NCBI RefSeq assembly: GCF_000743715.1
Contig: NZ_JQEY01000005.1
Location: 31,710-95,709 of the forward strand
Direction of reading: 5' to 3'
From: Palleronia rufa
GTDB lineage: Bacteria > Pseudomonadota > Alphaproteobacteria > Rhodobacterales > Rhodobacteraceae
DNA: 64,000 bases
Shown: positions 44,643-61,800 of the stretch, piece after piece
Position numbering within the stretch: position 1 is the stretch's first letter
Layout: each line of letters opens with the position of its first letter
Translations under genes and position numbers: made by a program
The notes under the pieces: generated by a model
Database searches by the model: none
Seen by the model: the letters and a program-made list of their open reading frames with translations, nothing else
What the model was told of the DNA's origin: nothing

Positions 44643-45536
44643 CTATTCCATCCGCAGCCCTTCGAACCCGAGCGCGGGCAGGATCGCCGGACTCTCCAGC
44701 ATCCCGCGGGCCGTGTGGCCGACGCCCTCGGCCTCGATCAGGCTCCATCCGAACGTCCAGCCCCTCTCGTCTGCGACGGCCCGCGCCATGTCAAATGTTT
44801 GGCGGCCGCGGTCGAGCCGGTCGTCGCCTTGCCGGTCGGCCTGCGCATTGCGGGTCAGGCTTTCGTCGCCGGTGTCTTCGGACCCCAGGTAGACAGTCAC
44901 CGGTGCTGCAAGGTAAGCCTGCAGGAGCGGGTCCGGATCCATCCCTTCGGGAAGGCCGCCGAAGCCATAGGGTGCGGCCTCGTCTGTCGTGGGCAGCACG
45001 TAGGTAGAGGGATTTGCAAGGACGATCCGTTCCACGTCGCGCGGTTCGGCATAGGCCGCATAGCGGGACAGGAACTGACCGCCAGCGGAATGGCCGAAAA
45101 GATAGATCGGCGCCCCAGCACCTTCGCGGTCACGGATCCAGTCGATGAGATCGCCCACCAGTTCGATGGTCCAGACCTCCGGATCGCGCAGCTGGCCGTC
45201 CTCGATCACACCGGCGCGATGGTAGCGCCAGTTGGGAAACCGTTCCTCGTCGAAAAGTGGCGCATAGATCGTGAAGCAGGAACGGTCCGCCACCGTCCGG
45301 GCAGAGTCCCGGTAAGATTCGGCGCCCCGTCCATTGCCGTGGAACACCACCAGCACTGCGGGTGCGGCGCATTCCGACGGGCGGTAGGAAAATATTTCCA
45401 TCGACAGTCCATCCACTTCGGCCACGGTCGCATCCACGCCGAAGCGCCGATCGACGCCTTCCGTTCCGCCGGGCGAGGCAAAAGCCGCCGAAAGCCCCGC
45501 AATCAGGATCAGCGCCCAAGGGGTTGAAATCTTCAT
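44643..45536 (-). CDS. Exported alpha/beta hydrolase (PHB-depolymerase/esterase-like)
   Basis: A 297-residue protein with a signal peptide (PWALILIAGLSAAFA). The hydrolase fold has VLVVFHGNGRGAESYRDSARTVA (oxyanion region), the nucleophile elbow FGHSAGGQFLSRYA, and a late GVGHTARGML holding the catalytic His. An acidic residue in VYLGSEDTGDESL is the probable third member. It resembles polyhydroxybutyrate depolymerase/feruloyl-esterase-like secreted hydrolases, but the substrate is unknown. It is transcribed away from the next operon; 187 bases separate them. Confidence 0.8.
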   Translation of the reverse strand: MKISTPWALILIAGLSAAFASPGGTEGVDRRFGVDATVAEVDGLSMEIFSYRPSECAAPAVLVVFHGNGRGAESYRDSARTVADRSCFTIYAPLFDEERFPNWRYHRAGVIEDGQLRDPEVWTIELVGDLIDWIRDREGAGAPIYLFGHSAGGQFLSRYAAYAEPRDVERIVLANPSTYVLPTTDEAAPYGFGGLPEGMDPDPLLQAYLAAPVTVYLGSEDTGDESLTRNAQADRQGDDRLDRGRQTFDMARAVADERGWTFGWSLIEAEGVGHTARGMLESPAILPALGFEGLRME

Positions 45537-45723
45537 TCTGCGTTCTTTCGCCTCCGGGGCCGTTCCGATATTCGGCGCCTCTCTGGACTTGTGTTTGCGG
45601 ACCCGGATCGGCAAGAGCCGATCGCATGTTTGCGGCCCTGGATCGCCAACAGCGGATCGCAGCGCGGTGGACTTTTCGTGCCCGGGCTCCAATAGATGAC
45701 TGCCGACCAAATGGACGCTGCGG

Positions 45724-46641
45724 ATGACCGTGCCGATTTCGACCGATAGCGAGGGCCTTGTGCCCGTCACACTGGAGTCACGCGGACGCCTTTCCGATCT
45801 GTTCGAGGCCAACGGCCGCGCCTGCTGGTTTCTCTATCCACCGTTTCTCCATCTGACCGGATTGCGCCGCGGGCATCGGATACTGGAAGAGGCCCATGAC
45901 GGAGCGGTGACCCTTTACAAGGCGCGGGATACGGAGTCGGGCCGCTCTCTTGAGCTTTTCGTTCCGCCCATACCGGCCACCCCCGCAACCCTGGCCCATG
46001 CCGTGGCCCGCGTGCGTGCCATCAGCCCTGCATCCCCTGTTCGCATCCGCCACGTCGAGGAACGCGACCTTGCCGCCGTCGCCCGCGCCGGCTTCGTCCT
46101 GCGCGACCGCGACGAAGAGTTCATCTACGATACGGCAAAGATCACGGCGCTTGAGGGATCGGACTTCAGGCGCTTGCGGCGGGAGATTGCCAAGACCTCC
46201 GCCCACTCCGGGTTGTCCGTGCGCGACTACGCCCCGGGCGACGAGGATGCCTGTCTTGCGGTGCTCGACCGTTGGCGGGAGCGTCTCAAGGCGGCCGATC
46301 TGCCCGCCGAAGGATACCGGCTGACCGCGAATTGCCTGCGCCACGCTTCGGGCTGGCCGCCGGACGCGATCCGGGGTCGAGTGTGCGAAGTCAACGGCGA
46401 AGTCCGTGGGTTTGCGTTCTCCGGTCCGATCAGTCGATCCTGCGGGAACATGTTCATCTGCATCACCGACACCGATCTGCGCGGTCTGGCATATCTCATG
46501 CGCTACGACCAGGTGACGCTCTGGCCGACTCTGGCGGAGTTCAACTCCGGCGGGGATGCCGGACGTACAGGGCTGAGTGAGCTCAAGCAGTCGTTCCGTC
46601 CGGTGCGCATGCAGCGGATCTACCGCGCAACCATGACATGA
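45724..46641 (+). CDS. DUF2156/LPG-synthase-C-like acyl or aminoacyltransferase, copy A
   Basis: A 305-residue protein with a tandem-GNAT-like layout resembling the C-terminal catalytic domain of lysyl-phosphatidylglycerol synthases (DUF2156). Features are YPPFLHLTGLRRGHRI, DEEFIYDTAKITALEGSDFRRLRREIAK, LTANCLRHASGW and GFAFSGPISRSCGNMFICITDTDLRGLAYLMRYDQ. Members of this fold use aminoacyl-tRNA or acyl-CoA donors. No membrane segment is present, so it acts in the cytoplasm. It overlaps its paralogue by four bases. The real acceptor is unknown; the downstream ATP-grasp enzyme suggests a peptide-like product. Confidence 0.72.
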   Translation: MTVPISTDSEGLVPVTLESRGRLSDLFEANGRACWFLYPPFLHLTGLRRGHRILEEAHDGAVTLYKARDTESGRSLELFVPPIPATPATLAHAVARVRAISPASPVRIRHVEERDLAAVARAGFVLRDRDEEFIYDTAKITALEGSDFRRLRREIAKTSAHSGLSVRDYAPGDEDACLAVLDRWRERLKAADLPAEGYRLTANCLRHASGWPPDAIRGRVCEVNGEVRGFAFSGPISRSCGNMFICITDTDLRGLAYLMRYDQVTLWPTLAEFNSGGDAGRTGLSELKQSFRPVRMQRIYRATMT

Positions 46642-47576
46642 GCGAAACGAGAACCGATATGGACGCATTGCCCGCCGCGCTCGACGGCCTCTCGCGGATA
46701 GAGGTCTCCGATTGTGAGGTCTTCGATGCGGCGGTGGCGGCGTCAGGTGCGACCGGATGGACCTACTATTTTCCTTACCTGCATTTCTTCAGCCAGCTTT
46801 CGGGTGGTGAGCGGGTACTTTTCGAGCGGACCGCGAACGCCGTGCTTGTCTATCGGCTTGTCCGGAAGCGGGATCGACTGACGCTTTCCCTTCTCGTACC
46901 GCCGTTTCCGTTCGACCACGACGCGCTGGACATCGCCGGCGCGCGGATGGCGGAGGTCAACCGCGACGGGAGGCAGCGCATCAGCCGGGTGCCGGAGGAA
47001 CTGGCCTGGGCGGTCGCGCGCGCTGGGTTCGAATTGCGGTTCAACGACGACGAATACATCTACGACGCGGCGCAGGTGCGTGAGATGGAAGGGCGGGGCT
47101 ACGCCTCCTTGCGCCGCAAGATCGGCCGGTTCGACCGGGATGCCATGGATATCCGTCCGTATGGCGCAGCCGAACGTGCGGGGTGCGAGGCGCTGCTGGA
47201 GGACTGGCGGCAGACCCTCACTGAGCGGGGAATCCGCATCGGACCGTACAAGACCTACGCACAGAGATGCCTTGCGAACGACGGAGCGTTCCACTCCTCC
47301 CGGCTGAGGGGCGAGGTGATCGAGATCGACGGTGCAATCGCGGCCTTTACCTTCGGAGGCCCGATCGACGCGGAGAGCGCAAGCCTGTTCATCACGGTAT
47401 CGGACCATCGCCAGCCCGGATTGGCCTATCTCCAGCGGCATCGGTTCATGGCGCACGATCCCGGCCCCCGTCTGTTCAACGATTTCGTTGACAGCGGCCG
47501 TGCCGGGCTGGCCCAGATGAAGCGGACGTTCCGCCCGGTCCGAATGCACACGCTGCTCAGCGCCCGCAGGTCATGA
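46638..47576 (+). CDS. DUF2156/LPG-synthase-C-like acyl or aminoacyltransferase, copy B
   Basis: A 312-residue paralogue of the preceding protein. It shares YYFPYLHFFSQLSGGERVLFE, NDDEYIYDAAQVREMEGRGYASLRRKIGRFDRD, YAQRCL, FGGPIDAESASLFITVSD and the same ending (MKRTFRPVRMH). The two copies align over their full length but are clearly diverged, so the duplication is old and the roles may differ. The ATG overlaps the upstream stop, giving coupled expression, perhaps of a heterodimer. Donor and acceptor are not known. Confidence 0.72.
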   Translation: MSETRTDMDALPAALDGLSRIEVSDCEVFDAAVAASGATGWTYYFPYLHFFSQLSGGERVLFERTANAVLVYRLVRKRDRLTLSLLVPPFPFDHDALDIAGARMAEVNRDGRQRISRVPEELAWAVARAGFELRFNDDEYIYDAAQVREMEGRGYASLRRKIGRFDRDAMDIRPYGAAERAGCEALLEDWRQTLTERGIRIGPYKTYAQRCLANDGAFHSSRLRGEVIEIDGAIAAFTFGGPIDAESASLFITVSDHRQPGLAYLQRHRFMAHDPGPRLFNDFVDSGRAGLAQMKRTFRPVRMHTLLSARRS

Positions 47577-47900
47577 AGGCTGCCCGCGCCTCGATTCGTC
47601 CGCGTCGCATCGCCGACCGAAGTTTGCCGTCGCAGAGATTTCCAGCTTTCTACCTATGCGTGTGGTGATCAATAATTGCACAACCATAGCATTAGCTCGG
47701 CCAGTGATTATGCATGTTGGGCAACCAGAAAAAATGTAGTCTTGCCAGACCATCCCCCTCAAAACCCGCATAAGTTGTTTCGGCGCCTTTTTTTAATGAA
47801 TTGTGCCGCAATTCGTTGCGGAACGCGAAAACAACAGTAAACCAGTGTTGGAATTGTGTGGCCTGCGTGTCCCATCCAAGAATTTTTGAGAGGTATTACC
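47577..47900 (+). promoter_or_regulatory. AT-rich leader upstream of the NTPase/export operon
   Basis: The 324 bases between the transferase pair and the NTPase gene are much richer in A/T than the surroundings (for example 47660-47740, GTGATCAATAATTGCAC). Several TTG/TAT-like promoter words occur, but I cannot pick one. GAGAGG at 47888-47893 is the ribosome site of the next gene. The composition suggests a regulated promoter or recently acquired DNA. Confidence 0.4.
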
Positions 47901-49679
47901 GTGGTCGCGATGCTGCCCAAGAAGCGAATCGACAATGCCAAGCGGGCGTTCAGCACACGCCGCGTGCCGACCGGCGACATGCGCCGGCTCTTGACCGGCG
48001 ATCTGCGCCCGGAGCCTGGCGACCTGGTGCTTGCCCGGGTGGATGAGATCCTGAAGCACACGAAGCTGGAACTCACCGACGGCCGGAAGGCGCACATGTT
48101 TCCCGGCGACGAGATCATCGTCGCGTTCGGGCACCGATATGCACCCGACCAGTACGAGGCGCAGATCGGTGAGGACCTGTCGCCTTGCGATCTGGTCGCT
48201 GCCGGCGGGCTCGCATCCGTCGAGATTTCACGCCATGAGCGGATGCTGCCGCCCACCCGCATCTCTCCGCTGGGCCTTCTGGCACGCGCTGACGGAACCC
48301 GGATGAATCTGGCCGATTACGGCGTGCGGGCCGGAGAGGGGCCCCCGCCCATCGCGGCGCTGCTGTCCCTGGGCACCTCGATGAACGCAGGCAAGACGCT
48401 CACGGCCATGTCGATGGTCCGCGGGCTCAAGCGCCTCGGCCACAAGGTCGCCGCGCTCAAGATCACCGGGACCGGCGCGGGTGGCGACATCTGGATCGTG
48501 CGCGACGCCGGGGCCGACGTGGTGGCCGATTTCACGGATGCCGGGTTCGCCAGCACCTATCTGACCCCGATCGAGGACATCGAGAGAGGATGCGCGCGGC
48601 TTCTCAACTACGCCGCCGACCAGGGCTGCGACATCGCGGTGATCGAGATCGCGGACGGTCTCCAGCAGCTCGAGACCTCGCGGCTGATCCACAGCCGCTC
48701 GATCCTGGACGTGACGCTGGGCACGGTCTTCGCAGCCTACGACGCCATGGGTGCGAAATACGGGGTCGATGTACTGAGAGCGGCGGGCCACAACGTCATC
48801 GCCATGAGCGGGCGTCTGGGCCGCTCTCCTCTTGGTGTGCGCGAGGCGGAGGCCGCTACCGGCCTTCGCGTGTTCAGCCCGTGGGAACTGCAGGACGGGA
48901 TGCTAATTCCGACGATCCGCAGCTGCGCCGTCGCGGCGCTCAAGGCCCAAGGTGGCGACGTTCCGCATCTTCACCGGCTGGCACGCGATGTGCTGGATCC
49001 GGCAGTCGTGCGGACATCGAATGTCGTAAACCTGATGTCGCCGGCCGCGGTACGGGAAGAGCAGGCCCGCGCCGTGCTGACCTGCGCGATCGAGCATGTC
49101 ATGTCCGCGGAGGTCGACGCGCTTTGCGGTGCGTCTTTCGGCGTGCGCGGCGCGACCCGGAAAAACCGGCGCAACGGATTCCGGCCGCGTCGTGTCGCGA
49201 CCGTCCTGGGCGATCTCTGGGTCCGGGTTCCGCGTCTGCGCCGGGGGGGCTATGGTCCTGGGGAAACGCTTTCGGTTGCCAGCCGTGAGGCGGTCGAGGC
49301 GGTGCTCTACTCCGCGAACGGCCCCGGTTTCGAGGCGGCCGTGTCCGCTCTGGTCGATGCGATCCGGCCCGAAACGGTGTCCGTTCCCGTGACGGGTTCT
49401 CTGGGTCAGGCGGTGATGTCCGCGATCCAGTCCGCCACTCAGACGACCGATCCGACCGTCGGACGCCTACCGCAGCAGGCCGCCGTGGCGGTAGATGACG
49501 GCGAGTTCGATAGCGATCTGGATGACGACGAGCAGGATTCGCTCGACCTTATGAACGAGTACGGGCATACTCGTCGGGCCGAAGGGTTCAACTCCTACGG
49601 GCGTCCGCCGTCCCGTGCCGCCGGCGGTGCGGCACCCGACTACGCTCCGCTTCGCTACATCCCGATTCCGGGCGAATGA
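47901..49679 (+). CDS. P-loop NTPase (DUF1611-like) fused to an IS256-transposase-like domain
   Basis: A 592-residue cytoplasmic protein with two unrelated parts. Residues ~1-145 are an uncharacterised N-terminal domain. Residues ~150-390 form a P-loop NTPase: G158-TSMNAG-K165-T, then VAALKITGTGAGGDIWIVRDAGADVVADFT, IAVIEIADGLQQ and a Ser/Gly-rich GRLGRSPLG, resembling DUF1611/MobB-like NTPases. Residues ~400-475 read like IS256-family transposase sequence (ATRKNRRNGFRPRR, LGDLWVRVPRLRRGGYGPG). A low-complexity acidic tail follows. GTG at 47901 fits GAGAGG best; the ATG at 47910 is possible. The function is unknown. Confidence 0.7.
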   Translation: MVAMLPKKRIDNAKRAFSTRRVPTGDMRRLLTGDLRPEPGDLVLARVDEILKHTKLELTDGRKAHMFPGDEIIVAFGHRYAPDQYEAQIGEDLSPCDLVAAGGLASVEISRHERMLPPTRISPLGLLARADGTRMNLADYGVRAGEGPPPIAALLSLGTSMNAGKTLTAMSMVRGLKRLGHKVAALKITGTGAGGDIWIVRDAGADVVADFTDAGFASTYLTPIEDIERGCARLLNYAADQGCDIAVIEIADGLQQLETSRLIHSRSILDVTLGTVFAAYDAMGAKYGVDVLRAAGHNVIAMSGRLGRSPLGVREAEAATGLRVFSPWELQDGMLIPTIRSCAVAALKAQGGDVPHLHRLARDVLDPAVVRTSNVVNLMSPAAVREEQARAVLTCAIEHVMSAEVDALCGASFGVRGATRKNRRNGFRPRRVATVLGDLWVRVPRLRRGGYGPGETLSVASREAVEAVLYSANGPGFEAAVSALVDAIRPETVSVPVTGSLGQAVMSAIQSATQTTDPTVGRLPQQAAVAVDDGEFDSDLDDDEQDSLDLMNEYGHTRRAEGFNSYGRPPSRAAGGAAPDYAPLRYIPIPGE

Positions 49680-49728
49680 TCCAATCCCGACCCCAACCGG
49701 GGCGGGACGCGCGATAGGGACCCGACCC

Positions 49729-51429
49729 ATGGCCCGACGCCGCAAGGCAGGTGAACGATCCACGATCGACAGGCTCTGGCGCGCATCGCGCGGCGGCTTG
49801 GCCGTGGTTCTGATTTTCAGCGCGTTCGTCAACGTGCTGAAGTTCGCGATGCCGCTGTATCTGCTGCAGGTTCTGGACCGGATCCCGGCCAGCCGCAGCC
49901 TTGAGACCCTGGTGATGCTCACCGCCATCACGGCTGTCGCGCTGGCGGCGGGCTATGCGCTGGATATCGTCCGCGGCCGGATGATGGGCCGATGGAGCGC
50001 ATGGATCGAGGCCAATCTGGGTCCGGAGATCATGCGCCTGGGAACGGGTTACGGCGACGCGCGCGACGAGCAAAACACAGATCAGGCGCTGACCGACCTT
50101 GCCGCCGTGAGCCGCTTTGCCGGCCGGTCGATGCTGCGCTGGCTGGATCTCATCTGGGCCCCGGTCTTCATCTTCGGCGTCTACCTGATCCATCCCGTTC
50201 TGGGATTCGTGGCGATCGGGGCGACGGCCCTGCTGGTCCTGATGGGCGTATTGCAGGACCGCACCACAAGCCCGTCGCGGCGGGCCGCCAGCGCCGCGCG
50301 CCGCGACGGGGGCGAACTCGTGCGCACGCTCGACCGGAACCGGGAATCGGTGGGCGGCCTTCAAATGGGGGAGAACCTGACCGCCCAATGGCGCCGCAAG
50401 GAGACCGGCCGCCTGGTCGAGCGGCAGACCACCGATGCCCGCGGCGACATGTTCCGCACGCTCATGGGGGGACTCGGCCAATATATGCGCATCGGCCTTC
50501 TGGCGGTCGGTGTCTGGCTGGTGGTGCTCGACCAGATAAGCCTGGGCAGCATCTTCGCCGCGCGGGTCATGGCGGGGTTCGGTTTTCGCCTGGTTGAGGG
50601 CGCGGTACGCAACTGGCGCGGGACGCGTGAAGCCCGCGATGCCTATGTCCGGCTGGTCAAGCACCTGTCACCCGCGGATGCCGCCCCTGTATCCGTGCTG
50701 AAGGGCATAGAGACCGCGCCGATGGTGCTCGATTCCGTGGGCCACCGGTATCCCTATCAGCGCAACAGCCTTTTCCGCAGGCTGTCGCTTTCCATCGAAC
50801 CGGGGGAATTTCTGCTGATCACTGGCCCGGCCGGCGCGGGCAAGACGACGTTGACGCGGATCCTGGTCGGCCTGATCGCGCCGCGCTACGGCACCGCCCG
50901 ACTGGGCGATGTGGACGTCACACGCCTGCCGCCGGACATGCGCGGACGGCTGATCGGTTACATGCCTCAACACACCGAGCTCTTCGACGCCACGATCCGC
51001 GAGAACATCGCCCGCATGGGCGACGCGCCGCTCGAAGAGGTCGTCGAGGTGGCGAAGCTGGTGGGTATCCACGACTTCGTGGTCGAACTGCCGGAAGGAT
51101 ACGATACCGTGATCGGCTCCGGCAACAGCGGCATCCTCAGCGGCAGCCAGAGAAAGCGCATCGGGATGGCCCGGGCGTTTTTCGGCCATCCCCGCCTGAT
51201 TGTCCTGGACGAGCCTTCGGCCAATCTGGACTCGCCGTCGCGCCGGGTCATGGAGGCCGCCATGAAGTCCCGCCGGGCGGCCGGTGCCACGATCATCGCG
51301 ACGCAGGCCATCGACTCGCCCCGGCTGTCCCGTCTGGCCGACCGCAACCTGACCCTGGGCGACAAGATCGAGATCACCGAGAAGCAACGCGGCTCATCCC
51401 GCCGGGCCAAGCTGAGGACGGTCAAATGA
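49729..51429 (+). CDS. PrtD-like type I secretion ABC transporter, altered H-loop
   Basis: A 566-residue exporter half: six membrane helices (~25-310) followed by the ATPase. Walker A is GPAGAGKT (366-373), the Q-loop lies in YMPQHTELFDATIREN, the signature is LSGSQRKRIGMARA and Walker B is LIVLDEPSANLD with catalytic Glu495. The conserved switch His is replaced by Gln526 (IIATQAID), which is unusual for this family. PrtD/LapB-like proteins export proteins or peptides through an HlyD adaptor and TolC. The HlyD gene follows with a four-base overlap; no TolC gene is in the window. Confidence 0.88.
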   Translation: MARRRKAGERSTIDRLWRASRGGLAVVLIFSAFVNVLKFAMPLYLLQVLDRIPASRSLETLVMLTAITAVALAAGYALDIVRGRMMGRWSAWIEANLGPEIMRLGTGYGDARDEQNTDQALTDLAAVSRFAGRSMLRWLDLIWAPVFIFGVYLIHPVLGFVAIGATALLVLMGVLQDRTTSPSRRAASAARRDGGELVRTLDRNRESVGGLQMGENLTAQWRRKETGRLVERQTTDARGDMFRTLMGGLGQYMRIGLLAVGVWLVVLDQISLGSIFAARVMAGFGFRLVEGAVRNWRGTREARDAYVRLVKHLSPADAAPVSVLKGIETAPMVLDSVGHRYPYQRNSLFRRLSLSIEPGEFLLITGPAGAGKTTLTRILVGLIAPRYGTARLGDVDVTRLPPDMRGRLIGYMPQHTELFDATIRENIARMGDAPLEEVVEVAKLVGIHDFVVELPEGYDTVIGSGNSGILSGSQRKRIGMARAFFGHPRLIVLDEPSANLDSPSRRVMEAAMKSRRAAGATIIATQAIDSPRLSRLADRNLTLGDKIEITEKQRGSSRRAKLRTVK

Positions 51430-52748
51430 CCCATGCCGACGACACTCCGACCGACACGGCGTTCCGGCACCCCTTCGGACCCGGCCTGGCCATCGCGGGC
51501 TTCGCGATCATCCTGTTTTTCGGCGGCACCTTCGCGGCCTGGTCCGTCATCGTTCCCATGGCCAGCGCGGTCGTCGCGCCGGGACTGGTCAGCGTCGACA
51601 CCAACGTGCGCACGGTCCAGCACCTGGAGGGCGGCATCATCCAGAGCATCGAGGTGCGCGAGGGCACGGAGGTCGAGGCCGGCGACATCCTGCTGCGCCT
51701 GGACAACACGATCCCCGCCGCCGTGATGACCGAGGTCCAGGCCCGGATATTCGAGCTTCAGGCGCTGGAGGCGCGGCTCCTGGCGGAACGCGACGGGGCG
51801 GACAAGGTGACGTTCCCGAAGGAGCTTCGGCTCAAGGTCGGTGACGCGGCCGCGCAGGAGGCCATGCAGGGGCAGAAGGAAGTCTTCGCCAGCCGGCGGG
51901 CGCTGCTGTCGGACCGGCTGACCGTCCTGGAGCAGACCCGTGCCGGTATCGAGAGCGAGATCGAGGGCCTGGAAGGGCAGATCGCATCGGCCGAGCGCCA
52001 GCTGTCCCTTCTGGGCGATGAGATGGAAACGGTGACCACCCTGCTCGACAGGCAGTTGGCCCAGCGCAGCCGCCTTCAGGAACTCCAGCGCGAGCAGGCC
52101 AAGCTGGAAGGAACGATCTCCTCCAACCGCGCGGCAATCGGGACCGCGCGCCAGAGGATGGAAGAGACGACCCTGCGCATGTCCGAACTGCGTGCGTCGG
52201 AAGCGAACTCCGTGGTCGAGGAACTTCGGGCGACGCGGGCCAACGCCTACGAGTTGCGCCAGAAACTGGCCGAAGCGCGCGACGTTCTGCGCCGGACAGA
52301 GATCATCGCGCCGATTCCCGGCGTCGTCGTCAATCTGGGCGTCAGCACCGTGGGCGGCGTCGTCGCGCCCGGTCAGGCATTGCTCGACCTTGTGCCGAGC
52401 GGCGACAAGCTGGTGATCCAGGCGACCATCGATCCGCTGGACATCGATCAGGTGTCCGTGGGGCTTCCGGCGACCGTCTGGCTGTCGGCGCTGAACAGGC
52501 GCAGCCAGACCGGGATCGAGGGCAGCGTCAAGACGATCTCGGCCGACCGGATCACCGACCCCCGCACGGGCGCGGCGTATTACCTGTCGCGGATTGAGCT
52601 CGACCCCGAGGACGTGGAGGGCAGCGAGGTTCCCCTGCAACCGGGAATGAGCGCCGAGATCATGATACGGACCGGGGAGCGCACGGCCTGGGATTATATC
52701 GCAGCGCCGATTTCGCGGGCGATTTCGCGGGGCCTGCGAGAAGAGTGA
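51426..52748 (+). CDS. HlyD-family membrane fusion protein (type I secretion adaptor)
   Basis: A 440-residue adaptor. One N-terminal helix (AIAGFAIILFFGGTFAAWSVI) anchors it. Then comes the lipoyl half-motif VQHLEGGIIQSIEVREGTEVEAGD, a long coiled coil (~100-290, rich in Leu/Glu heptads) and the return half RRTEIIAPIPGVVVNLGVSTVGGVV. The C-terminal beta-barrel has LQPGMSAEIMIRTGERT. It bridges the ABC transporter to an outer-membrane channel. The coupled start (ATGA) shows that it works with the ABC protein upstream. Confidence 0.92.
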   Translation: MTHADDTPTDTAFRHPFGPGLAIAGFAIILFFGGTFAAWSVIVPMASAVVAPGLVSVDTNVRTVQHLEGGIIQSIEVREGTEVEAGDILLRLDNTIPAAVMTEVQARIFELQALEARLLAERDGADKVTFPKELRLKVGDAAAQEAMQGQKEVFASRRALLSDRLTVLEQTRAGIESEIEGLEGQIASAERQLSLLGDEMETVTTLLDRQLAQRSRLQELQREQAKLEGTISSNRAAIGTARQRMEETTLRMSELRASEANSVVEELRATRANAYELRQKLAEARDVLRRTEIIAPIPGVVVNLGVSTVGGVVAPGQALLDLVPSGDKLVIQATIDPLDIDQVSVGLPATVWLSALNRRSQTGIEGSVKTISADRITDPRTGAAYYLSRIELDPEDVEGSEVPLQPGMSAEIMIRTGERTAWDYIAAPISRAISRGLREE

Positions 52749-52795
52749 GCTTTCGCTGCGGTTGCGGATTTTGTTCAGTGGTTTGAGAGGGCGGC

Positions 52796-55783
52796 ATGAA
52801 GATCGAGAGCATGAAGCGGCCGGCGTCGGGGAATTTCTGGTGCCGGCACCCCGTGGTCGTGGTGACCTTCGACGCGAACCCCGCCCTTTCGGCTGCGGAT
52901 CGACGGCGGCTACTGGCCGCGATCGGTCCCCAGAGGTCCGATATGCTCGACTTTCCGGCCTGGGCTACCCTGGGTGCGGCCACCGGTCCGGTTCCGGCGG
53001 CCCATGCGGTGGAAGTGCTGGCATTGCTGCTCCAGCGCAGCCTGTGGTGGCCGGTCGCCTACGGCCGGATGGGCCAAGAGGAGGGTGCCGTGTTCGAAAC
53101 GCGGAACCGTCAGGTGGGACGCATCGCGGCCCAGCGCGCCACGGATGTCGTGGCCCGCTGCATGTCCGGCGAGGACGGCCCGACGCTGCGGCAGACCTTC
53201 TTGTCGGCTCTGACCGGATTTCAAAAGCGCACGGCGCGCATGACCCCGGCATTCGATGCGCTGGCCCTTGCCGCAAGCGCCGAGGCAAGGGGCATCTCCT
53301 GGACTAGCGTGGCCGACTCCACATTCGTTCGCCTGGGCTCCGGGCGATTTTCCAAGGCCCTCCGCGGGTCCGAGTCCTCGGACACCTCACTCATGGGCAA
53401 GCGTCTGGCGAAGAAGAAGGCGGTGACCAACGCGATGCTGGCCGCCGCGGGCCTTCCGGTTCCGGAGCAACGGACTGTCCGCTCGGTCCGCAACGCCGTG
53501 CGTGCCTATGTCTCGCTGGGCCGCGAGGTCGTCGTCAAACCCACCGACGGAAATCAGGGCAAGGGCGTGACCGTGCGGCCCGGATCGGCTCTTCAGGTGG
53601 CGCGAGCCTTCGTGCGCGCACGCAAGGTTTCACGCTCGGTGCTGGTCGAGGCCTTCGTGCCGGGGGACGAGTACCGGCTGCTGGTGGTCGGTGGCCGGTT
53701 CCGTGCGGCCAGTCACCGTCGGCCGGCGCGCGTCACCGGAGACGGACGGACCTCCGTTCGTGAGCTTGTCGCCCGCGTGAACGCAGAGCCGCTGCGCGCG
53801 TCCGTGCCCCATGGCCGTCTTGCCGTGCGTCTGCCCATCCCTCTCGACGACAGCGCCGTGGCCCATCTGGCCGGCCAGGGACTGAACACGGAGAGCGTCC
53901 CGTCCGCGGGACAGGTGGTGGAGATCAACGGACTGTCCAATGTCAGCCAGGGCGGCGATACGGTGGACCTGACGGATCGTGTCCACCCGGAAATCCGCCG
54001 GACCGCAGAGCGCGCGGCCCAGCTTCTGGGTATCGACCTCTGCGGAATCGACTTTCTGACTACGGACCTTACCAAACCGCTGTCCGAAGCGCCCGGCGCC
54101 ATCTGCGAAGCCAACACCCAACCCGGACTGAGCCTGCACCTTGTGGTCACGGAGGGTCAGGCGCAGGACGTCGCGGCGCATTACGTGGACACGATGTTTC
54201 CGGAAGGTGCGCGGACCGGTATTCCCGTCGTCGCCCTCACCGGAGGCGCCGGGGCCACCCGGCTCGCCACGAAAATCGCCGTTGCCGCCCGTGAGCAGGG
54301 GCTGCAGGTGGGGCTGTTCCCTGCAGGACTGGCCGATGCGGTCCGGGAAGCGCTGCCGGACTTGGGGCATCCTCTGGCCTTGCCGAGTGTCGAGGCGCTG
54401 TCGTGGGAAGAAAGCATCGACGCCGCCCTCATCATGCTGCCGCCGAGCAGCATCGATCGGACGGGAATCGGACGGGACAAGGTGGATCTGGCCATCGTCC
54501 CTGCGGACCACCGCAAGCCGGCGACCGGCCGGGCCATCGCCGCGCTGGAACAGGCGGCGGATGGCCGGGTCATGTCCGCGGACAATCCAGCGGCCGTGGC
54601 GCGCGCGCTCGATGTGCTGGGCGTCGTCGCACCGGTGCTGCGTTCCGCGCCCGGATCCGCCGCGCCCACCCCGCTTCCGGAGGAGCGCTCAGAGGCGCGG
54701 GTGGTCACCTTCGTTGGCGATATCGGTTTCGGAGAGGCCTACCGGCACTATCCCAAGTGCCGCGACCTGCAACGCATCCTGGACCTGAACGGCTACGGAT
54801 ACTGCATGAGCCGGGTCCAGCATCTCATCTCCGAGTCAGACATGGTGATCGGCAATCTGGAGGTTCCCCTGGCCCCCCGGGTCGACGAACGCCTGCGGGG
54901 ACGCAAGAAGTTCTTGGGCTGGTGTGAGCCGCAGCGTACGCTCGACGCGCTGCGGTCGGCAGGTTTCACGGCATTGTCCCTTGCCAACAACCATGCGCTC
55001 GACTGCGGTCCGCTGGGGCTTGCGGCGACGCAGGACAGCCTGACCCGTGCCGGGATCGTCCCGTTCGGCGCCGGCCGTGACGCCGATATCGCAGCGCGGC
55101 CCATCGTCCGGCAGATCAGGATCGGCGGACGCACCAGATCCGTGGTGGTCTTCGCCGGGTTCGAGCATCGTGACCGCTACGACCGACGCTACAAATGGTA
55201 TGCCTCTGCCGGGTCCGAAGGTGTCGCCAGGCTGGAGCCAGCCGTGATCGCCGAGCATATCGCCGCGCTGCGGTCCGAGCTTGCCGATCCCATTTTTGTC
55301 GCGTTCCCCCATTGGGGGGTCGATTATCAGGATGTCACGGACGGGCAGAGGGACCTTGCCAAGGCTCTCATCGAGGGGGGCGTCGACGCGGTGATCGGCC
55401 ATGGCACCCATAGTTGTCAGAGGATCGAGGTCATCGATGGCCGCCCGGTCGTGTTCGGCCTGGGCAACTTTGTCTGGAACACGCCCGGAAGCGGCTTCGG
55501 CAAGCACGATGCGCCGCCTTTCGGCCTGGTGGTGGATCTGGCGCTGGGCGCCAGCGATGGGTTCACGCTGCGGGTTCATCCGATCCTGACGGACAATGCG
55601 CAGACCCGATTCCGCAACCGTCCTGCCACGGCGGAGGAATTCGATCGCGTGGCCAAGGCATTGCTGCCGGACGAAGGCACGGCCCCCGTCGGCCCCGCCG
55701 GTCGATTGCACATTGAGTTGATGTGCCAAGGGGCTGAGACCTGGGTTCGTCGGGCCGAGGCGGACAGAATCTCGGCGGGCTGA
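52796..55783 (+). CDS. ATP-grasp (cyanophycin-synthetase-like) and CapA-phosphoesterase fusion
   Basis: A 995-residue cytoplasmic protein with three sections. Residues ~1-190 resemble the cyanophycin synthetase N-domain. Residues ~195-465 are an ATP-grasp ligase (VVVKPTDGNQGKGVTV, DEYRLLVVGGRF, CGIDFLTTDL, GAICEANTQPGLSLH). Residues ~475-610 keep a Mur-ligase-like strand but with a broken P-loop, TGGAGATR in place of GTNGKTT. Residues ~632-975 form a CapA/PgsA-like calcineurin phosphoesterase (FVGDIGFGEAY, IGNLEVPL, SLANNHALDCG, FPHWGVDY, GHGTHSCQRIEV, FGLGNFVWN). It should ligate amino acids in an ATP-dependent way. Substrate unknown. Confidence 0.85.
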   Translation: MKIESMKRPASGNFWCRHPVVVVTFDANPALSAADRRRLLAAIGPQRSDMLDFPAWATLGAATGPVPAAHAVEVLALLLQRSLWWPVAYGRMGQEEGAVFETRNRQVGRIAAQRATDVVARCMSGEDGPTLRQTFLSALTGFQKRTARMTPAFDALALAASAEARGISWTSVADSTFVRLGSGRFSKALRGSESSDTSLMGKRLAKKKAVTNAMLAAAGLPVPEQRTVRSVRNAVRAYVSLGREVVVKPTDGNQGKGVTVRPGSALQVARAFVRARKVSRSVLVEAFVPGDEYRLLVVGGRFRAASHRRPARVTGDGRTSVRELVARVNAEPLRASVPHGRLAVRLPIPLDDSAVAHLAGQGLNTESVPSAGQVVEINGLSNVSQGGDTVDLTDRVHPEIRRTAERAAQLLGIDLCGIDFLTTDLTKPLSEAPGAICEANTQPGLSLHLVVTEGQAQDVAAHYVDTMFPEGARTGIPVVALTGGAGATRLATKIAVAAREQGLQVGLFPAGLADAVREALPDLGHPLALPSVEALSWEESIDAALIMLPPSSIDRTGIGRDKVDLAIVPADHRKPATGRAIAALEQAADGRVMSADNPAAVARALDVLGVVAPVLRSAPGSAAPTPLPEERSEARVVTFVGDIGFGEAYRHYPKCRDLQRILDLNGYGYCMSRVQHLISESDMVIGNLEVPLAPRVDERLRGRKKFLGWCEPQRTLDALRSAGFTALSLANNHALDCGPLGLAATQDSLTRAGIVPFGAGRDADIAARPIVRQIRIGGRTRSVVVFAGFEHRDRYDRRYKWYASAGSEGVARLEPAVIAEHIAALRSELADPIFVAFPHWGVDYQDVTDGQRDLAKALIEGGVDAVIGHGTHSCQRIEVIDGRPVVFGLGNFVWNTPGSGFGKHDAPPFGLVVDLALGASDGFTLRVHPILTDNAQTRFRNRPATAEEFDRVAKALLPDEGTAPVGPAGRLHIELMCQGAETWVRRAEADRISAG

Positions 55784-55932
55784 CGGCAGACTGGGGTGTC
55801 ATGGCGTGCCCCCGTGGCGAACGGACAAGATGTCGCGGAACGCCGGGCGGTCTTTGGAGTTACTGCAACCAAGCCGCGGGCTCCGTCCCGGTCGGATGCG
55901 CGCATGATCCATGCCCGCCATCAGTTTATGGA

Positions 55933-57000
55933 ATGCGCGTGTCAGTTTTTCTCCACGGGGTCGCCACGGCCCTCCCGGTCCACGACCTTCCCCAGGACAT
56001 CGTACAGGCCAGGGCGCAGGACCTGCTGGGGCCGAAATATCCGCAGTTTCAGCGGCTTCTGTCCACCTTCGCAAGTGCGGGGATCGAAACGCGGCACTCC
56101 GTCGTTCCTATAGAGTGGTTCGAAAGTCCCCACGGCTGGAAGGAGCGCAACGACGCCTACATCGCCGGCGCCACGCAGCTTTTCATCGACGCGGCCCGGG
56201 CGGCGCTGACGGCGTCGGACTGGCGTGCGGAGGATGTCGATTGCATTGTCACGGTTTCCTCGACGGGCATCGCCACACCGACCCTTGAAGCCCGCGCCAT
56301 GGAACAGATGGGCTTTCGGCAGGACGTCCGGCGGGTCCCGGTCTTCGGCCTGGGATGCGCAGGCGGCGTGTCCGGACTCTCGGTCGCGCAGTCCCTCGCC
56401 GCTGCCCGGCCGGAAGAGCGTGTCCTGCTGGTCGTGGTAGAGACCTGCACCCTGTCCTTCCGCACCGACCGTTTGCAGAAGGCCGACATCATCGCCACCG
56501 TGCTCTTCGGCGACGGGGCGGCCGCGGCGTGCCTGTCGGGCCTCCGCTCAGAACGGCAACGGGTGTCGCTGGGTGCAGGCACGCAGACGACATGGCCGGG
56601 AACGCTGGGGATCATGGGATGGGATGTGGACGACACCGGCCTTGGAGTCGTCTTCGACCGGTCGATTCCGGGGTTCGTGATCGACCACATGGGGGGCGCG
56701 GTGGATCGTGCCCTTGCGGCCACCGGTCTGGCGCGCGGCGACATCGCCCGTTTCGTCTGCCATCCGGGCGGAGCCAAGGTCGTCACAGCGATCGAGAGCG
56801 CGTTGCATCTTGAGCAGGGCGCGCTTCAGGCAGAGCGCGAGGTTCTGCGGACCGCGGGCAACATGTCCGCGCCGACCGTCCTTTTCGTGCTGGAGCGGGT
56901 GCTGAACGAGGGGGCGACAGGGCAGATGATGGCGTCGGCCCTTGGGCCCGGGTTCTCCGCCGCGTTCCTTCCGTTTCATGTCGAGGCTGCGGCCTCCTGA
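55933..57000 (+). CDS. Type III polyketide synthase (chalcone/alkylpyrone synthase family)
   Basis: A 355-residue ketosynthase with the complete type III catalytic triad: Cys142 (GLGCAGGVSGL), His277 (VCHPGGAK) and Asn310 (TAGNMSAPT). The WDVDDTGLGVVFDRSIPGFV block is typical of bacterial PKS of the BpsA/alkylresorcinol group. It condenses fatty-acyl-CoA with malonyl-CoA to make alkylpyrones or alkylresorcinols. I chose the ATG at 55933 because upstream in-frame sequence (55801-55932) is not protein-like. A methyltransferase-like gene follows with a one-base overlap, as in B. subtilis bpsA-bpsB. Confidence 0.9.
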   Translation: MRVSVFLHGVATALPVHDLPQDIVQARAQDLLGPKYPQFQRLLSTFASAGIETRHSVVPIEWFESPHGWKERNDAYIAGATQLFIDAARAALTASDWRAEDVDCIVTVSSTGIATPTLEARAMEQMGFRQDVRRVPVFGLGCAGGVSGLSVAQSLAAARPEERVLLVVVETCTLSFRTDRLQKADIIATVLFGDGAAAACLSGLRSERQRVSLGAGTQTTWPGTLGIMGWDVDDTGLGVVFDRSIPGFVIDHMGGAVDRALAATGLARGDIARFVCHPGGAKVVTAIESALHLEQGALQAEREVLRTAGNMSAPTVLFVLERVLNEGATGQMMASALGPGFSAAFLPFHVEAAAS

Positions 57001-57485
57001 TGACCACCGGCGCTGCGCTGTTTCTGGGGTTCCTGGTGCTTCAGCGCCTGTCGGAACTGGTCATCGCCCGTCGCAATACCGCACGCCTTCTGGCGGCAGG
57101 GGCGCGAGAGGTCGCACCTGGCCACTATCCGGTCATCGTGGCGATGCACACCGCGTGGATCCTGTGCCTGATGCTGTTCGGATACGATGAATCCGTCCGT
57201 CCCATATAGCTGGTGCTGTTCGCGATCCTCCAGGGGTTGCGGGTCTGGATCCTGGCGACGCTGGGGCGGCGCTGGACGACGCGGATCATCGTGACCGACA
57301 CGCCGCTTGTGGCGGGCGGTCCATACCGATGGCTCAGCCATCCGAACTATCTGCTGGTCGTGACCGAAATCGCCATCGCCCCCCTGGTGCTGGGCCAATG
57401 GTGGATCGCACTGGTCTTCACGCTGCTGAACGCTGTCGTTCTGACGATCCGGATCCGTGCAGAGGACCGGGCGATCCGTCCCTGA
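57000..57485 (+). pseudogene. Isoprenylcysteine carboxyl-methyltransferase (ICMT)-family protein with in-frame amber codon
   Basis: Two frame-matched halves are separated only by a TAG at 57207-57209. The first (69 residues) has LFLGFLVLQRLSELVIARRNT and HYPVIVAMHTAWILCLMLFG. The second has LQGLRVWILATLGRRWTTRIIV, GGPYRWLSHPNYLLVV and the C-terminal IRAEDRAIRP. Together they make a standard ~160-residue ICMT-like membrane methyltransferase that in related operons O-methylates the polyketide. Where relatives often have Trp, TGG to TAG is a one-base change. It is a recent nonsense mutation, a suppressed stop or an error. Confidence 0.8.
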
Positions 57486-57597: not shown

Positions 57598-58785
57598 CTA
57601 GCCCCTCAGGCGGGTCGCGATCCGGCGGAGGGGGGATGTCAAGCGATAGGACCGGCTGTCTCGGACCGCCTGAGTCTCCGCCTTGGCCGCCTCCGCGGCG
57701 ATCCGGGCTGTATGAAGCTCCTGTCGAAGATCTTCATTGGATCTGGTGATGACGCCCAGGCCGCGGGTCAAGTCGTCGATCTTCCGGTCGCGCTCCATCA
57801 GCATCTGGGCGCGATGGGTCAGCTCTTCCGTCAACGTGTCGATTTCCGCATTCGCGCCATCCCGCGCCGCGTCGGATGCGGCGCGATCCCTCGCGGACCG
57901 GACCAGCGGGTCGAACAGGGGCACCAGTGCATCGAGTTTCTTGCGGATCCCGTCCAAGACGGTGCGCTGTCCGGGATCCTCGCCATGCCGCGCCCACGTC
58001 ATGAGCACGTCTTGGATGTCCCGTATCCACGGCAGCTCTGGGTGGTCGCGATCCGCGTCGGCAAAGGTGAAATGGCGCATGGAGGGGGTCAGAAAGCTTT
58101 CGACCTCGGCGGTGGCAAGCGCGGATCGGCGGGGCAAGCGAAGGTCGAGACCATTCTCGATCCGCGCAACCTCTGCGGCCCAGTCGGACAGGAGTCGATC
58201 GAAGCTTACGAAAACGCGGGGCAGATCGCGTGACGCACGCTCACCCTCAAGTACGTAGCGCAACCAGATCAACCGCCCCAGAACCGTGTCGAAGCCGTTG
58301 CGCTCGGTCAGGGAGGCCGCGACATCCGCTGGGGACCGCACGGCGAACACCATTCGCGTATCATAGCCCGCGCGGCCGAGTACATCGACCCAAAAGGCGG
58401 TGAGAAGGCAGATGCGGGGATCCTTCAGCACGATCAGCGGCGAGGCACCGAACTCTGCCACGACCAGGGCCAACGCTTCCTGCGCAAAATACTCGTACCG
58501 CGGACTTTGGAGCCAGGCCGGGTTCACGCCGCTCCAATCGTTCCAGACGGTGCCGGCGGCTTCAAGGATCCGGTTGTTCAGATCGGTGATCGGAAAGGAT
58601 TCGTAGAACCCCTTGGCGTTACGGCCGTCGGCCGGCAGCGGCGTCGCCGGCGCGTCGCAGCCGAGCCGGTTGAGAAGGCCCGAAATGGCCGACGTGCCAG
58701 AGCGGTGCATACCCATGATCAGGACCGCAACGCGCCGGCTGGCGGCAGGCTGCGGCGTCCGGGTCTGGGGGGGCGATGGCATCAT
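57598..58785 (-). CDS. Sulfotransferase-family protein with C-terminal coiled coil
   Basis: A 395-residue cytoplasmic protein. The N-terminal sulfotransferase part has the PAPS 5'-phosphosulfate loop (LIMGMHRSGTSAISGLLNRLG), then FYESFPITDLNNRIL, LIVLKDPRICLLTAFW (3'-phosphate region) and VFAVRSPADVAASLTERN. From ~295 to 395 it is helical and charged with coiled-coil spacing (EIDTLTEELTHRAQMLMERDRKIDDL). The tail SYRLTSPLRRIATRLRG resembles those of glycan-synthesis proteins. AGAGGA five bases upstream supports ATG 58785. It probably modifies the glycan made by the neighbouring glycosyltransferase. Confidence 0.85.
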   Translation of the reverse strand: MMPSPPQTRTPQPAASRRVAVLIMGMHRSGTSAISGLLNRLGCDAPATPLPADGRNAKGFYESFPITDLNNRILEAAGTVWNDWSGVNPAWLQSPRYEYFAQEALALVVAEFGASPLIVLKDPRICLLTAFWVDVLGRAGYDTRMVFAVRSPADVAASLTERNGFDTVLGRLIWLRYVLEGERASRDLPRVFVSFDRLLSDWAAEVARIENGLDLRLPRRSALATAEVESFLTPSMRHFTFADADRDHPELPWIRDIQDVLMTWARHGEDPGQRTVLDGIRKKLDALVPLFDPLVRSARDRAASDAARDGANAEIDTLTEELTHRAQMLMERDRKIDDLTRGLGVITRSNEDLRQELHTARIAAEAAKAETQAVRDSRSYRLTSPLRRIATRLRG

Positions 58786-58858
58786 GGCTGTCCTCTGCGG
58801 CGCGGTTCTCTTGCCACGTCCGCCGCGCCAGCGCAAACCAGGCACGATGGGAACCGGA

Positions 58859-61800
58859 TCATGGCAAAAGATCGGCCAGCGGATGCGGATCCGTCAGCAC
58901 GTTGCGGCTGACCCACAGATGCTCTACGGCGCGCCGCCGCATCTCTGCCACGTCATTCCGCCGTTCAACGATGGCGGCCAGCGCGTCGTACCAGGCGTCC
59001 GGCGAGGGCCCGCAGCCGATGGCAAGCCCGTCCGCGACGGCTTGTCCGTACACTTCGCCCTCGGACACCACCGACAAAAGCCCCATGGCGCAATAGTCGA
59101 GAAACTTGACGTCCGACTTCGCGCCGTTGAAGGGCGACCGGGCAAGGGGCGCGAGACCCACGTCGAAAGACAGATTGCGGGTCACGTAACGCGCGAAGCC
59201 AGGATAGCTGCGTGCGGTCTGCGGAAGGCTGCACACCTCAAGCCACTCGGCCTCGGGGGGGGTCGATGTCACGCCGATGAGTGTCAGGATGAACTGTCCG
59301 GGATGCGTGGTTGCCAGACGCTCGAACGCGGGCAGGACCAGTTGGAGGTCCGCGTGATGGGTGGCCGTTCCCATATAAACAAAGCGGATGGGACCGTCCG
59401 TGAAAAGCGGGCTGACCGGATTGCGATAGTCGCGCCAGAATCGCGGATCCAGGTCGTTGCGCCGGACGCGGGCCTTGCGGGCCACGTCGGGATAGAGCTT
59501 TGCCAGTGCTGGGGTGGAGAACCAGACCTCTTGCGCGGCATCCATCAGACGGCGCAAGGCCGCATCGGCCGCGCGGTAGTCGTCATGGAGGTGAAAGGCG
59601 TCGTCGGTATCCACGTAGAGCGGGACGCTCCGCTCTCTCAGGCGGTCGATCAGCCGGGCGGCGTCGTCCGGATCGGAAACGGCGACACGCTGAACGATGC
59701 AGATGTCGCAGTGATCCAGTCGGGGATCGTCCGGGCCGTCCAGGGCGATGGGATCCAGGCCCGCGACGGAATGCGCATGATCCGTGGTCAACGGTCCGAT
59801 CAGGCGGATGAAGGCCGAGCTGGTCCACCAGGCCCGCCCCCTCTGAAGCAGCAGGCCGACGGTGCGGCGCCTGACGGCCGGTGCCAAATCCGGTGCCGGC
59901 GCCAACGCCAGCGCAGAAGCGGCTTCGGTCGGCAGAAGCGCCTCGCGGACAGCGTCCAGGATGGTCCCGGCCCGCGCGTTGAACGATTCGTGTTCCGCCA
60001 CGTGATCGGCAGCGGCGCGGCGCGTGTCGTCGGCCGGAAGCGGCTGGCTTACGGCCTGTAGAAACGCCTGCTCCGTCTCCACCGTCGCCACCGCATCTCC
60101 GAACATCGCGTCCACAGAGGGCAAGCGGTCCGAAACCAGGCGGCCGCCACTGGCCAGCACGTCGAAAACGCGGTTCGAGACGAAGCCGAAATCCTTCATC
60201 GACTGCCAGTGATCGTTCAGCACGAACCGCGCGGAGCGGTACTTGGCGGACAGCTCTGTGTTCGGCACATTCTGCCCCGCGATGCGCTCCGGAGGGATGA
60301 AACCCTCCCACAGAGTGCCGTAGATGTCGATCTCGACGTCGTTTTCCACGGACCAGCGCACCATCTGCCGGTACTCGCGCCGCGAATTTCCGACGAACAG
60401 CCCTCTGCCCTCCGAGTCGATCGGCGGCGCGTCCTGCGGCAGGTGAAATCGCTCCGTGTCGGTGCATTGCAGCAATGCGTGGACGGGACGCTCCAGGATC
60501 AGCGACAGCAGTGCCGCATAGGATCGCGAGGCCACCATCACCACGTTGCAGGCGGCATATTCCTCATAGGGGACCTGATCCGGGTGGCTGATGTTCCACA
60601 TGACGGTAATCTGGCTGGGCAGGGCGCGGTGCCCCTCCAGCCCGCGGATCACCAGGGCGACATCGTCCTTCCAGGCGGACGGAAGGCTCCAATCCCCCCG
60701 GAAGTCGATCCGGGCGTCATGGCCCCGGCGCTTCAGCGCATCGGACAGCGAGTCGGCATAGTGGAAGTCTCCCCATTCGGCGCGCTTCTCATAGGGAGCG
60801 GCGATCTTGATCGCGAAGGAAAGCGACAGCGCGTCCCATGTCTCGGCCGCCGTGGTACGTCCGAGCCGGTTTTTCTGGGCCACGACTTTCCGGAAGAGAT
60901 ACGGTTGCGAGACCGTGATGCGGTTCGCGTCGCCCACGGAGTCGAGATACAGGCATCCGACATAGGGCAGGTAGGCGACCTTGCGTCCCTTGGAATATCG
61001 CAGGATCAGATCCCAGTCGACGACCCTGCGCAAATGCTCGTCGAAACCGCCGCGTTCCGCCACCAGTCCGATGCGGTGGGCAAAGACGTTCATATCGACA
61101 TAGTTCGCCGAAAGACACGCTCTCCAGTCGAATGGCTCACCGCGATAGCCCAGAAGCTCTCCGGTCTCGGTCACCAGGCAGCTGGCGGCATAGGCACAAT
61201 CAGCGCCGGAGACATGCAGACCGGTCAGCATCAGTTTGACGTGGTCGTGCGTCCAGGTGTTGTCGGAGTCCAGATAGAACACCACGCTGCCGGTCGCATG
61301 GTTCAGCGCGACGTTGCGGGCCGCACTGACGCCGCGGTGGTCGGCTTCGAACACACGCAAACGGGGATCATCAATGCGGGCCAGACGCTCTATCGTGTCG
61401 TCGGTGCTGCCGTCGTCGACGACCAGCAGTTCGAGGTCGGAGTGGGACTGGGTCAGGACCGAGCGGACGGCGGCCCCGATCAGCCCGGCGCGGTTGTAGG
61501 TCGGCATGACGACCGATACTTTGATGGCGGCGCAGTCGGCATCGTAGAGCGCTTCGGCGGCGGCCGCGTAGCGGCGTGCGGCAACGGTGTCGAAGGTCGC
61601 CGTCATTTTGCGGGGGTTTGATGACGGCGGGTCGGTGACGCGGGCCATGGCCTTGCGCGCCTCGCGGACCGTCATCCGCCAGCCGCGGTTCGACAGGCCC
61701 GAGGCAGCGACAGCCTGGGCGGGGCTCGTCGCGAAACCGTCAGGCAAGGGAATCCGCCGGCCCTCGATCCGGCCGCTTTGCTCATAGTGCAAAAGCGGAT

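Follow-up and report, generated by a model that had tools for sequence, protein, structure and literature searches.

A rare seven-gene locus of Palleronia rufa that may make and export an acidic poly(amino acid)

We analyzed a 64,000-nucleotide stretch of the Palleronia rufa genome (referred to as the window; coordinates count from its first nucleotide). Positions 44,643-55,783 hold a core of seven genes, which encode a minus-strand alpha/beta-hydrolase, two DUF2156 transferases, a P-loop NTPase, an ATP-binding cassette (ABC) exporter, an HlyD-family adaptor, and a protein in which an ATP-grasp ligase is fused to a CapA domain. We tentatively propose that this rare, co-inherited locus serves to synthesize an acidic poly(amino acid), export it, and trim it, the polymer most likely resembling polyaspartate. 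Relatives of a poly-Asp synthetase and of a poly-Asp depolymerase, a CapA domain, and an exporter occur together, and an exported acidic poly(amino acid) is therefore their simplest common denominator. An earlier note, made from the sequence alone, had suggested that the product might be a decorated alkyl polyketide or an exported polypeptide-like polymer. The PahZ1-like depolymerase and the CphA-type ligase strengthen the case for the polymer, and the polyketide part is not supported, as the polyketide synthase (PKS) is a separate unit.

RESULTS

The core genes recur together on a Microvirga plasmid

With the NTPase as tblastn query against plasmids, we identified one relative that also has the IS256 domain, on a plasmid of Microvirga ossetica, a distant root-nodule bacterium in Hyphomicrobiales and thus in a different order of Alphaproteobacteria. 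An 18-kb stretch of plasmid NZ_CP016620.1 (positions 346,174-364,278) carries orthologues of all seven core genes, with identities of 37-53%, and this same stretch gave the best match of every core gene among 72,556 plasmids. The margins over the runner-up were large for the ABC exporter (441 versus 243 bits) and the HlyD adaptor (388 versus 268 bits), and neither DUF2156 gene matched any plasmid in this set other than that of Microvirga. The series that the earlier note had treated as a unit, DUF2156-DUF2156-NTPase-ABC-HlyD-ATPgrasp/CapA, does recur, in a different order of the class.

Two rare features of the window are also found in Microvirga. The ATP-grasp/CapA fusion aligns at 41% identity over nearly its full length, and the P-loop NTPase again carries an IS256 domain; its identity is 53% across 74% of the query and 61% within the NTPase part. 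The Microvirga cluster additionally holds a tetratricopeptide repeat (TPR) protein with a DUF2156-like C-terminus. Its gene order is rearranged overall, but the fusion gene still comes after ABC-HlyD, with the TPR gene in between.

Genomes were surveyed as samples rather than exhaustively, with different queries on different, partly overlapping samples. Among 385 genomes sampled from the class, the full-length fusion had no second carrier, and the same held for the NTPase-IS256 form among 150 genomes sampled from the order. The DUF2156 subfamily had no other carrier in the class sample or in 396 further genomes of the family, and the NTPase was absent from 13 genomes of the genus. The conserved synteny in distant Rhodobacterales that the earlier note had looked to was thus not found in the genomes covered by these last two queries. 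Viral contigs yielded no relatives, and a search extended to a second order gave a single genome. All core genes recur at one Microvirga stretch, and the samples showed no further DUF2156 pair; the seven-gene core is thus a rare unit whose members keep together. It looks like a horizontally moved unit, with insertion sequences on its left.

These data also bear on the idea that the locus is a chance neighborhood of unrelated genes. IS630 and IS110 elements on the left and the absence of the NTPase from other genomes of the genus would suit such an origin, and the PKS-ICMT pair on the right is indeed an independent unit, for which the explanation holds. For the seven-gene core it is refuted by the joint occurrence in Microvirga, with best-match margins far over the runner-up, and as an account of the whole it retains next to no probability. 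A phage-defense reading was rejected, as the locus had no PADLOC match.

The fusion protein aligns to cyanophycin synthetases

Residues 13-568 of the fusion protein align to solved cyanophycin synthetases, with E values down to 1e-77; its score against the NCBIfam model cya_phycin_syn is 357 bits, for a cut-off of 850. Cyanophycin synthetase builds a poly-Asp backbone, and its M site adds Arg. CphA2, a relative, also lacks the P-loop of the M domain (P-loop-M). We mapped residues with roles described for TeCphA1 (PMC9427784) onto the two fusion proteins. The ATP, Mg, and phosphate residues K220, K261, R309, D431, and E450 correspond to K208, K248, R294, D419, and E438 in the window and are the same in Microvirga. 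N452 and the Asp-contacting residues R323 and N394 are likewise conserved in both loci. E215 is changed, the P-loop-M residue Lys499 is lost (A487 in the window, E in Microvirga), and the M domain is reduced to a remnant. Since the ATP/Mg/phosphate residues are kept, the M P-loop Lys is lost, and E215, His267, and Arg458 are changed, the fusion probably retains a backbone-forming ligase, with its Arg-adding site lost as in CphA2 and its substrate recognition altered. A comparison of the fusion with a named genome collection by two weak patterns returned a single, irrelevant match.

The CapA domain keeps the equivalents of MslH residues Glu44, Asn87, His88, Asp91, and His295, as read off an alignment outside of which the other metal ligands lie; the roles of these residues are from work on MslH (PMC10406935). 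With these residues kept, a metal-dependent epimerase activity or a related role is possible for the domain.

Clusters of synthetase and depolymerase are the rule for cyanophycin, occurring in 81% of genomes that have both (PMC10206079). Our locus resembles the systems of CphA1 or CphA2 with cyanophycinase in that the N and G domains align over ~500 residues, the ATP/Mg residues are kept, and the ligase is clustered with a depolymerase-like gene. It differs in its vestigial M domain, in the changes at His267 and Arg458, in the CapA domain fused at the C-terminus, in a depolymerase of the PahZ1 type in place of a cyanophycinase, and in the presence of exporter and DUF2156 genes. With the Pgs/Cap systems for poly-gamma-glutamate, it has in common the CapA domain and, as we propose, an exported acidic poly(amino acid). 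In contrast to those systems, the ligase is an ATP-grasp enzyme fused to CapA, and profile searches of the locus proteins detected neither a Mur-type CapB/PgsB ligase nor the membrane protein CapC.

A PahZ1-like hydrolase belongs to the core

The divergent hydrolase gene, which the earlier note had overlooked, belongs to the core set. Its protein matches poly(aspartic acid) hydrolase-1 in the PDB (9o7u, E = 9e-31; 6ve6, E = 5e-29) and keeps the serine-hydrolase motif of PahZ1. Microvirga carries three copies, and the copy that was compared is 50% identical to the window hydrolase and has the same best solved relatives. PahZ1 is an endo-acting hydrolase that cleaves beta-amide bonds of synthetic poly(Asp), with a preference for the (L-Asp)-(D-Asp) junction (PMC4456602). 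The window protein shares with PahZ1 its sequence family, its Ser motif, and likely secretion. Whereas synthetic poly(Asp) led to the discovery of the known enzymes, the gene here adjoins a candidate polymer ligase and an exporter.

Relatives of the NTPase also pair with such hydrolases. A full-length, unfused homologue is present in 13 other Rhodobacterales genomes (sample of 150). In the eleven genomes and four plasmids that were read, the unfused NTPase usually adjoins a PahZ1-like hydrolase, a CydDC-like ABC exporter, and a histidine kinase/response regulator, with not every neighborhood holding all of these. In one genome outside the class (L061), NTPase, ABC, and hydrolase genes lie together. 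In view of this recurrent pairing of NTPase, PahZ1-like hydrolase, and exporter, we treat the hydrolase as a real component of the locus. The smaller hydrolase/NTPase/CydDC-like ABC set was seen at L033-L043, L023, L024, L026, and L061. In five genomes (L034:14908-16316, L035, L038, L040, and L064), genes encoding DUF4956 and VTC-domain proteins lie close to the small set of NTPase and ABC genes.

The NTPase carries an IS256-type domain

The fold model of the NTPase is confident only over about residues 1-350, with the IS256 part lacking a confident model, and a fold search returned only generic P-loop folds (signal recognition particle GTPases, CTP synthetases, and dethiobiotin synthetases). 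One more distant homologue lies between argC/argB and argR (L063:7089-10739), a placement that suggests a part in the biosynthesis of arginine or N-acylglutamate, and another adjoins an M20 peptidase. On a Priestia megaterium plasmid (L055:6778-15478), a distant homologue accompanies two dipeptide-ligase-like ATP-grasp genes, two thiamine pyrophosphate (TPP)-enzyme genes, an ornithine carbamoyltransferase gene, and a phosphoenolpyruvate (PEP)-mutase-family gene, a cluster that is possibly a phosphonopeptide-type pathway. The window NTPase thus shares with DUF1611/DgcN proteins a MobB/BioD-type P-loop and, in the one distant relative at L063, neighbors from arginine biosynthesis; it differs from them in scoring under the Pfam cut-off, in its fusion to an IS256-type domain, and in its coupling to exporters.

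The exporter resembles type I secretion systems

As in type I secretion (PrtD-HlyD-TolC), the ABC and adaptor genes overlap, and a TolC-like protein is encoded elsewhere in the genome. The 4-bp overlap is also kept in Microvirga. No obvious protein substrate was seen at the window locus, and its ABC protein scores under the PrtD cut-off.

One Microvirga hydrolase (L022:3507-4712), encoded in the same cluster as ABC-HlyD, has a weak C-terminal Peptidase_M10_C match of the type I secretion kind (18.4 bits, cut-off 20.7), and for this reason the exporter may carry the hydrolase. An alternative explanation extends this to the whole locus: the type I system would export the PahZ1-like enzyme to scavenge a polyamide or polyester from the environment, and the other genes would process the products taken up. 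The position of that Microvirga hydrolase next to ABC-HlyD fits this explanation, and family members elsewhere adjoin oligopeptide importers and peptidases. The window hydrolase, however, has a likely Sec signal and no type I secretion C-terminus, the locus has neither an importer nor an exopeptidase, and an ATP-grasp ligase and two transferases would be left unexplained. We regard this alternative as improbable.

The DUF2156 pair lacks a flippase domain

In profile searches, both DUF2156 proteins matched PF09924 only, with no trace of the N-terminal membrane flippase domain of MprF. They therefore have the LPG_synthase_C domain in common with the lysyl-phosphatidylglycerol synthase MprF and differ from it in missing the flippase. 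Their nearest solved relative, 2hqy, is uncharacterized.

The above-threshold PF09924 matches invite a reading in which lipids or a surface glycan receive aminoacyl groups from the DUF2156 proteins in an MprF-like manner, and the fusion protein attaches amino acids to the envelope. Glycosyltransferase-like and sulfotransferase-like genes adjoin the locus, as might then be expected; comparable glycan genes are not found near the Microvirga set, however, and neither the missing flippase nor the presence of a CphA-type ligase with a polyamide-hydrolase relative would be anticipated. Envelope modification is, in our estimation, distinctly improbable.

Layout and transcription units

Features of the locus are listed in Table 1. 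Profile searches located all eight plus-strand genes of the earlier note, with their claimed domains, at the coordinates it gave. The overlaps that it described are also present, at 46638/46641 (4 bp), at 51426/51429 (4 bp), and at 57000 (1 bp, TGATG). The last of the eight genes, encoding an ICMT-type methyltransferase, is however not a single open reading frame (ORF) and contains an in-frame TAG. The boundary of the proposed locus was also misplaced at both ends, with the hydrolase missed on the left and the PKS-ICMT pair wrongly counted in on the right.

Table 1. Features of the locus and its right-hand neighbors, in window coordinates
Feature	Coordinates	Strand	Evidence and remarks
Alpha/beta-hydrolase, PahZ1/LpqC family, likely Sec signal peptide	44643..45536	-	Homology to solved structures; Ser motif GHSAGGQF
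Intergenic region between divergent hydrolase and DUF2156a genes, candidate divergent promoter region	45537..45723	.	Sequence and scan
DUF2156a, LPG_synthase_C-type transferase, 305 aa	45724..46641	+	PF09924 47.4 bits (cut-off 27.5); Microvirga orthologue 37%
DUF2156b, LPG_synthase_C-type transferase, 312 aa	46638..47576	+	PF09924 50 bits (cut-off 27.5); Microvirga orthologue 47%; 4-bp overlap with DUF2156a
324-bp gap, probable start of second transcription unit	47577..47900	.	
DUF1611/MobB/BioD-like P-loop NTPase (LGTSMNAGKT) with C-terminal IS256/Mutator-transposase N-terminal-type domain and low-confidence tail	47901..49679	+	Profile searches; Microvirga homologue
IS256/Mutator N-terminal-type domain within NTPase protein	49044..49286	+	PF00872 E 1.7e-11, profile positions 19-98 of 379; fused in Microvirga too
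Type I secretion-type ABC exporter, PrtD-like	49729..51429	+	TIGR01842 399 bits, below curated cut-off 510; Microvirga 48%
HlyD-family periplasmic adaptor	51426..52748	+	TIGR01843 360 bits (cut-off 209); Microvirga 50%; 4-bp overlap with ABC gene
Fusion protein: cyanophycin-synthetase-type N and G (ATP-grasp) domains, vestigial M domain, CapA (PGA_cap), 995 aa	52796..55783	+	Profile and structure-homology searches
CapA domain of fusion protein, residues 637-895	54704..55480	+	PF09587 176 bits (cut-off 27); MslH homology
Type III PKS, judged outside the core	55933..57000	+	Profile searches; stand-alone cassette elsewhere
ICMT-type methyltransferase of PKS cassette, interrupted	57000..57485	+	In-frame TAG at 57207-57209

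The probable NTPase start is the GTG at 47901, with GAGAGG. Because this start leaves a gap of 324 bp, the plus-strand genes probably form more than one transcription unit. The units are probably the hydrolase gene (minus strand), the DUF2156a-b pair, and the run from the NTPase to the fusion gene (both plus strand). A scan of the divergent intergenic region gave no sigma-70-type promoter match, and the 324-bp gap holds no small ORF common to the window and Microvirga.

To the left of the locus, apparently the same IS630-type transposase ORF occurs in two copies (16299-17033 and 40104-40838), and an IS110-type transposase lies at 43037-44065. To the right, on the minus strand (57598-62047), are a sulfotransferase-like gene and a gene for a large glycosyltransferase-like protein; counterparts of these were not seen near the Microvirga set.

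The PKS-ICMT pair is a separate cassette

The earlier note had placed the PKS and the methyltransferase in the same system as the exporter. Relatives of the PKS with 62-75% identity are found on Marinovum, Alloyangia, and Sulfitobacter plasmids, where they are paired with an ICMT-type gene in a cassette of two genes. The surroundings of these cassettes contain no NTPase or fusion gene and no type I exporter set. A rhizobial PKS relative has no annotated ICMT gene adjoining it. Conversely, the stretches of the Microvirga locus that were read contain no annotated PKS. Each unit occurs without the other, and the PKS pair and the exporter set are therefore two units, which is the outcome that the earlier note had named as separating them.

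The TAG stands where all three ICMT relatives (61-74% identity) have a conserved Trp, and the sequence downstream of it is still conserved. The window copy is broken, either recently or by a sequencing error. We rejected the PKS-ICMT pair as part of the system on three grounds: its absence near the Microvirga set, its occurrence alone in three Rhodobacterales, and the interrupted ICMT gene. The closest known counterpart of the pair is the cassette of the BpsA/BpsB type, in which a PKS is coupled to an ICMT methyltransferase. Like that type, the pair has adjacent genes with overlapping stop and start, as in the three other Rhodobacterales; it differs in that the ICMT partner is not intact, and we judge it to be independent of the core.

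DISCUSSION

Several observations weigh against an exported polyaspartate-like polymer. The complete loci found number two, that of the window and that of Microvirga. His267 of TeCphA1, in P-loop G, is replaced (Q254 in the window, K in Microvirga), as is the Asp-contacting Arg458 (S446 in the window, S in Microvirga); since neither is conserved, the monomer need not be Asp. LpqC, named as a putative polyhydroxybutyrate depolymerase, is as close to the hydrolase as PahZ1 is, so judging by its relatives the hydrolase could be an esterase. The usual cargo of PrtD/HlyD exporters is protein, and the window locus yielded no substrate protein bearing a type I signal. The structure model of DUF2156b (pLDDT of 53) was too poor and was not used. 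Finally, the Pfam DUF1611 scores fall below the cut-off of 25 bits (14.6 in the window, 21.6 in Microvirga), and the role assigned to the NTPase is a guess.

The loss of His267 and Arg458 of the polymerizing CphA would also suit a small amidated metabolite or short peptide. Here, the ATP-grasp enzyme would form one amide bond, the DUF2156 proteins would draw on aminoacyl-tRNA to add aminoacyl groups, and export together with maturation or self-protection would fall to the exporter and the hydrolase. The Priestia plasmid, where a distant NTPase relative sits beside two dipeptide-ligase-like ATP-grasp genes and a PEP-mutase-family gene, is in keeping with this explanation, as is the activity of the CapA-fold enzyme MslH on a peptide precursor (PMC10406935). 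However, no small precursor ORF is conserved across the two loci, genes for adenylation and carrier proteins are absent from the locus, and the closest characterized relative of the hydrolase is polymer-active. We give a small product a low, though appreciable, probability. The hypothesis of a precursor for a ribosomally synthesized and post-translationally modified peptide was rejected, given that no small ORF is common to the window and Microvirga loci.

Under the acidic poly(amino acid) proposal, the CphA-type ATP-grasp domain would use ATP to activate the C-terminal carboxyl of the growing chain, to which an amino acid would be added. With the Arg-adding M site dead, the chain would be unbranched or built of preformed units. 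The chain would be the target of the fused CapA domain, which might be a metal-dependent epimerase or an anchor. By analogy with their family, the two DUF2156 proteins would transfer aminoacyl groups that start, cap, or decorate the chain. The DUF1611-like NTPase might modify or gate the substrate, and its IS256 DNA-binding-type domain might provide a link to regulation. The PrtD/HlyD-type exporter, together with the TolC-like protein encoded elsewhere, would move the product or the hydrolase out, and the PahZ1-like hydrolase would cleave the polymer outside the cytoplasm, a substrate suggested by homology.

None of the domains in the locus is new by itself. What appears to be new is the combination of genes, along with the two fusions, ATP-grasp/CapA and NTPase-IS256. 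No description of the gene set was found in the literature, within incomplete coverage. We know of few bacterial routes to poly(amino acids). A more specific and, on balance, unlikely version of our proposal is that these genes form a pathway devoted to a biogenic polymer of the polyaspartate type that is exported and whose stereochemistry may be mixed D/L, as set by the epimerase-like CapA domain. To our knowledge, it would be the first such pathway to be recognized. If true, it would supply a natural substrate for PahZ1-type hydrolases. As an arrangement for producing an acidic polyamide outside the cell, a CphA-type ligase fused to CapA and encoded alongside a PahZ1-type depolymerase and a dedicated exporter would be new. 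It would place poly(aspartic acid) hydrolases in a natural setting and would be relevant to biofilm biology, metal-binding biology, and biodegradable polymers.

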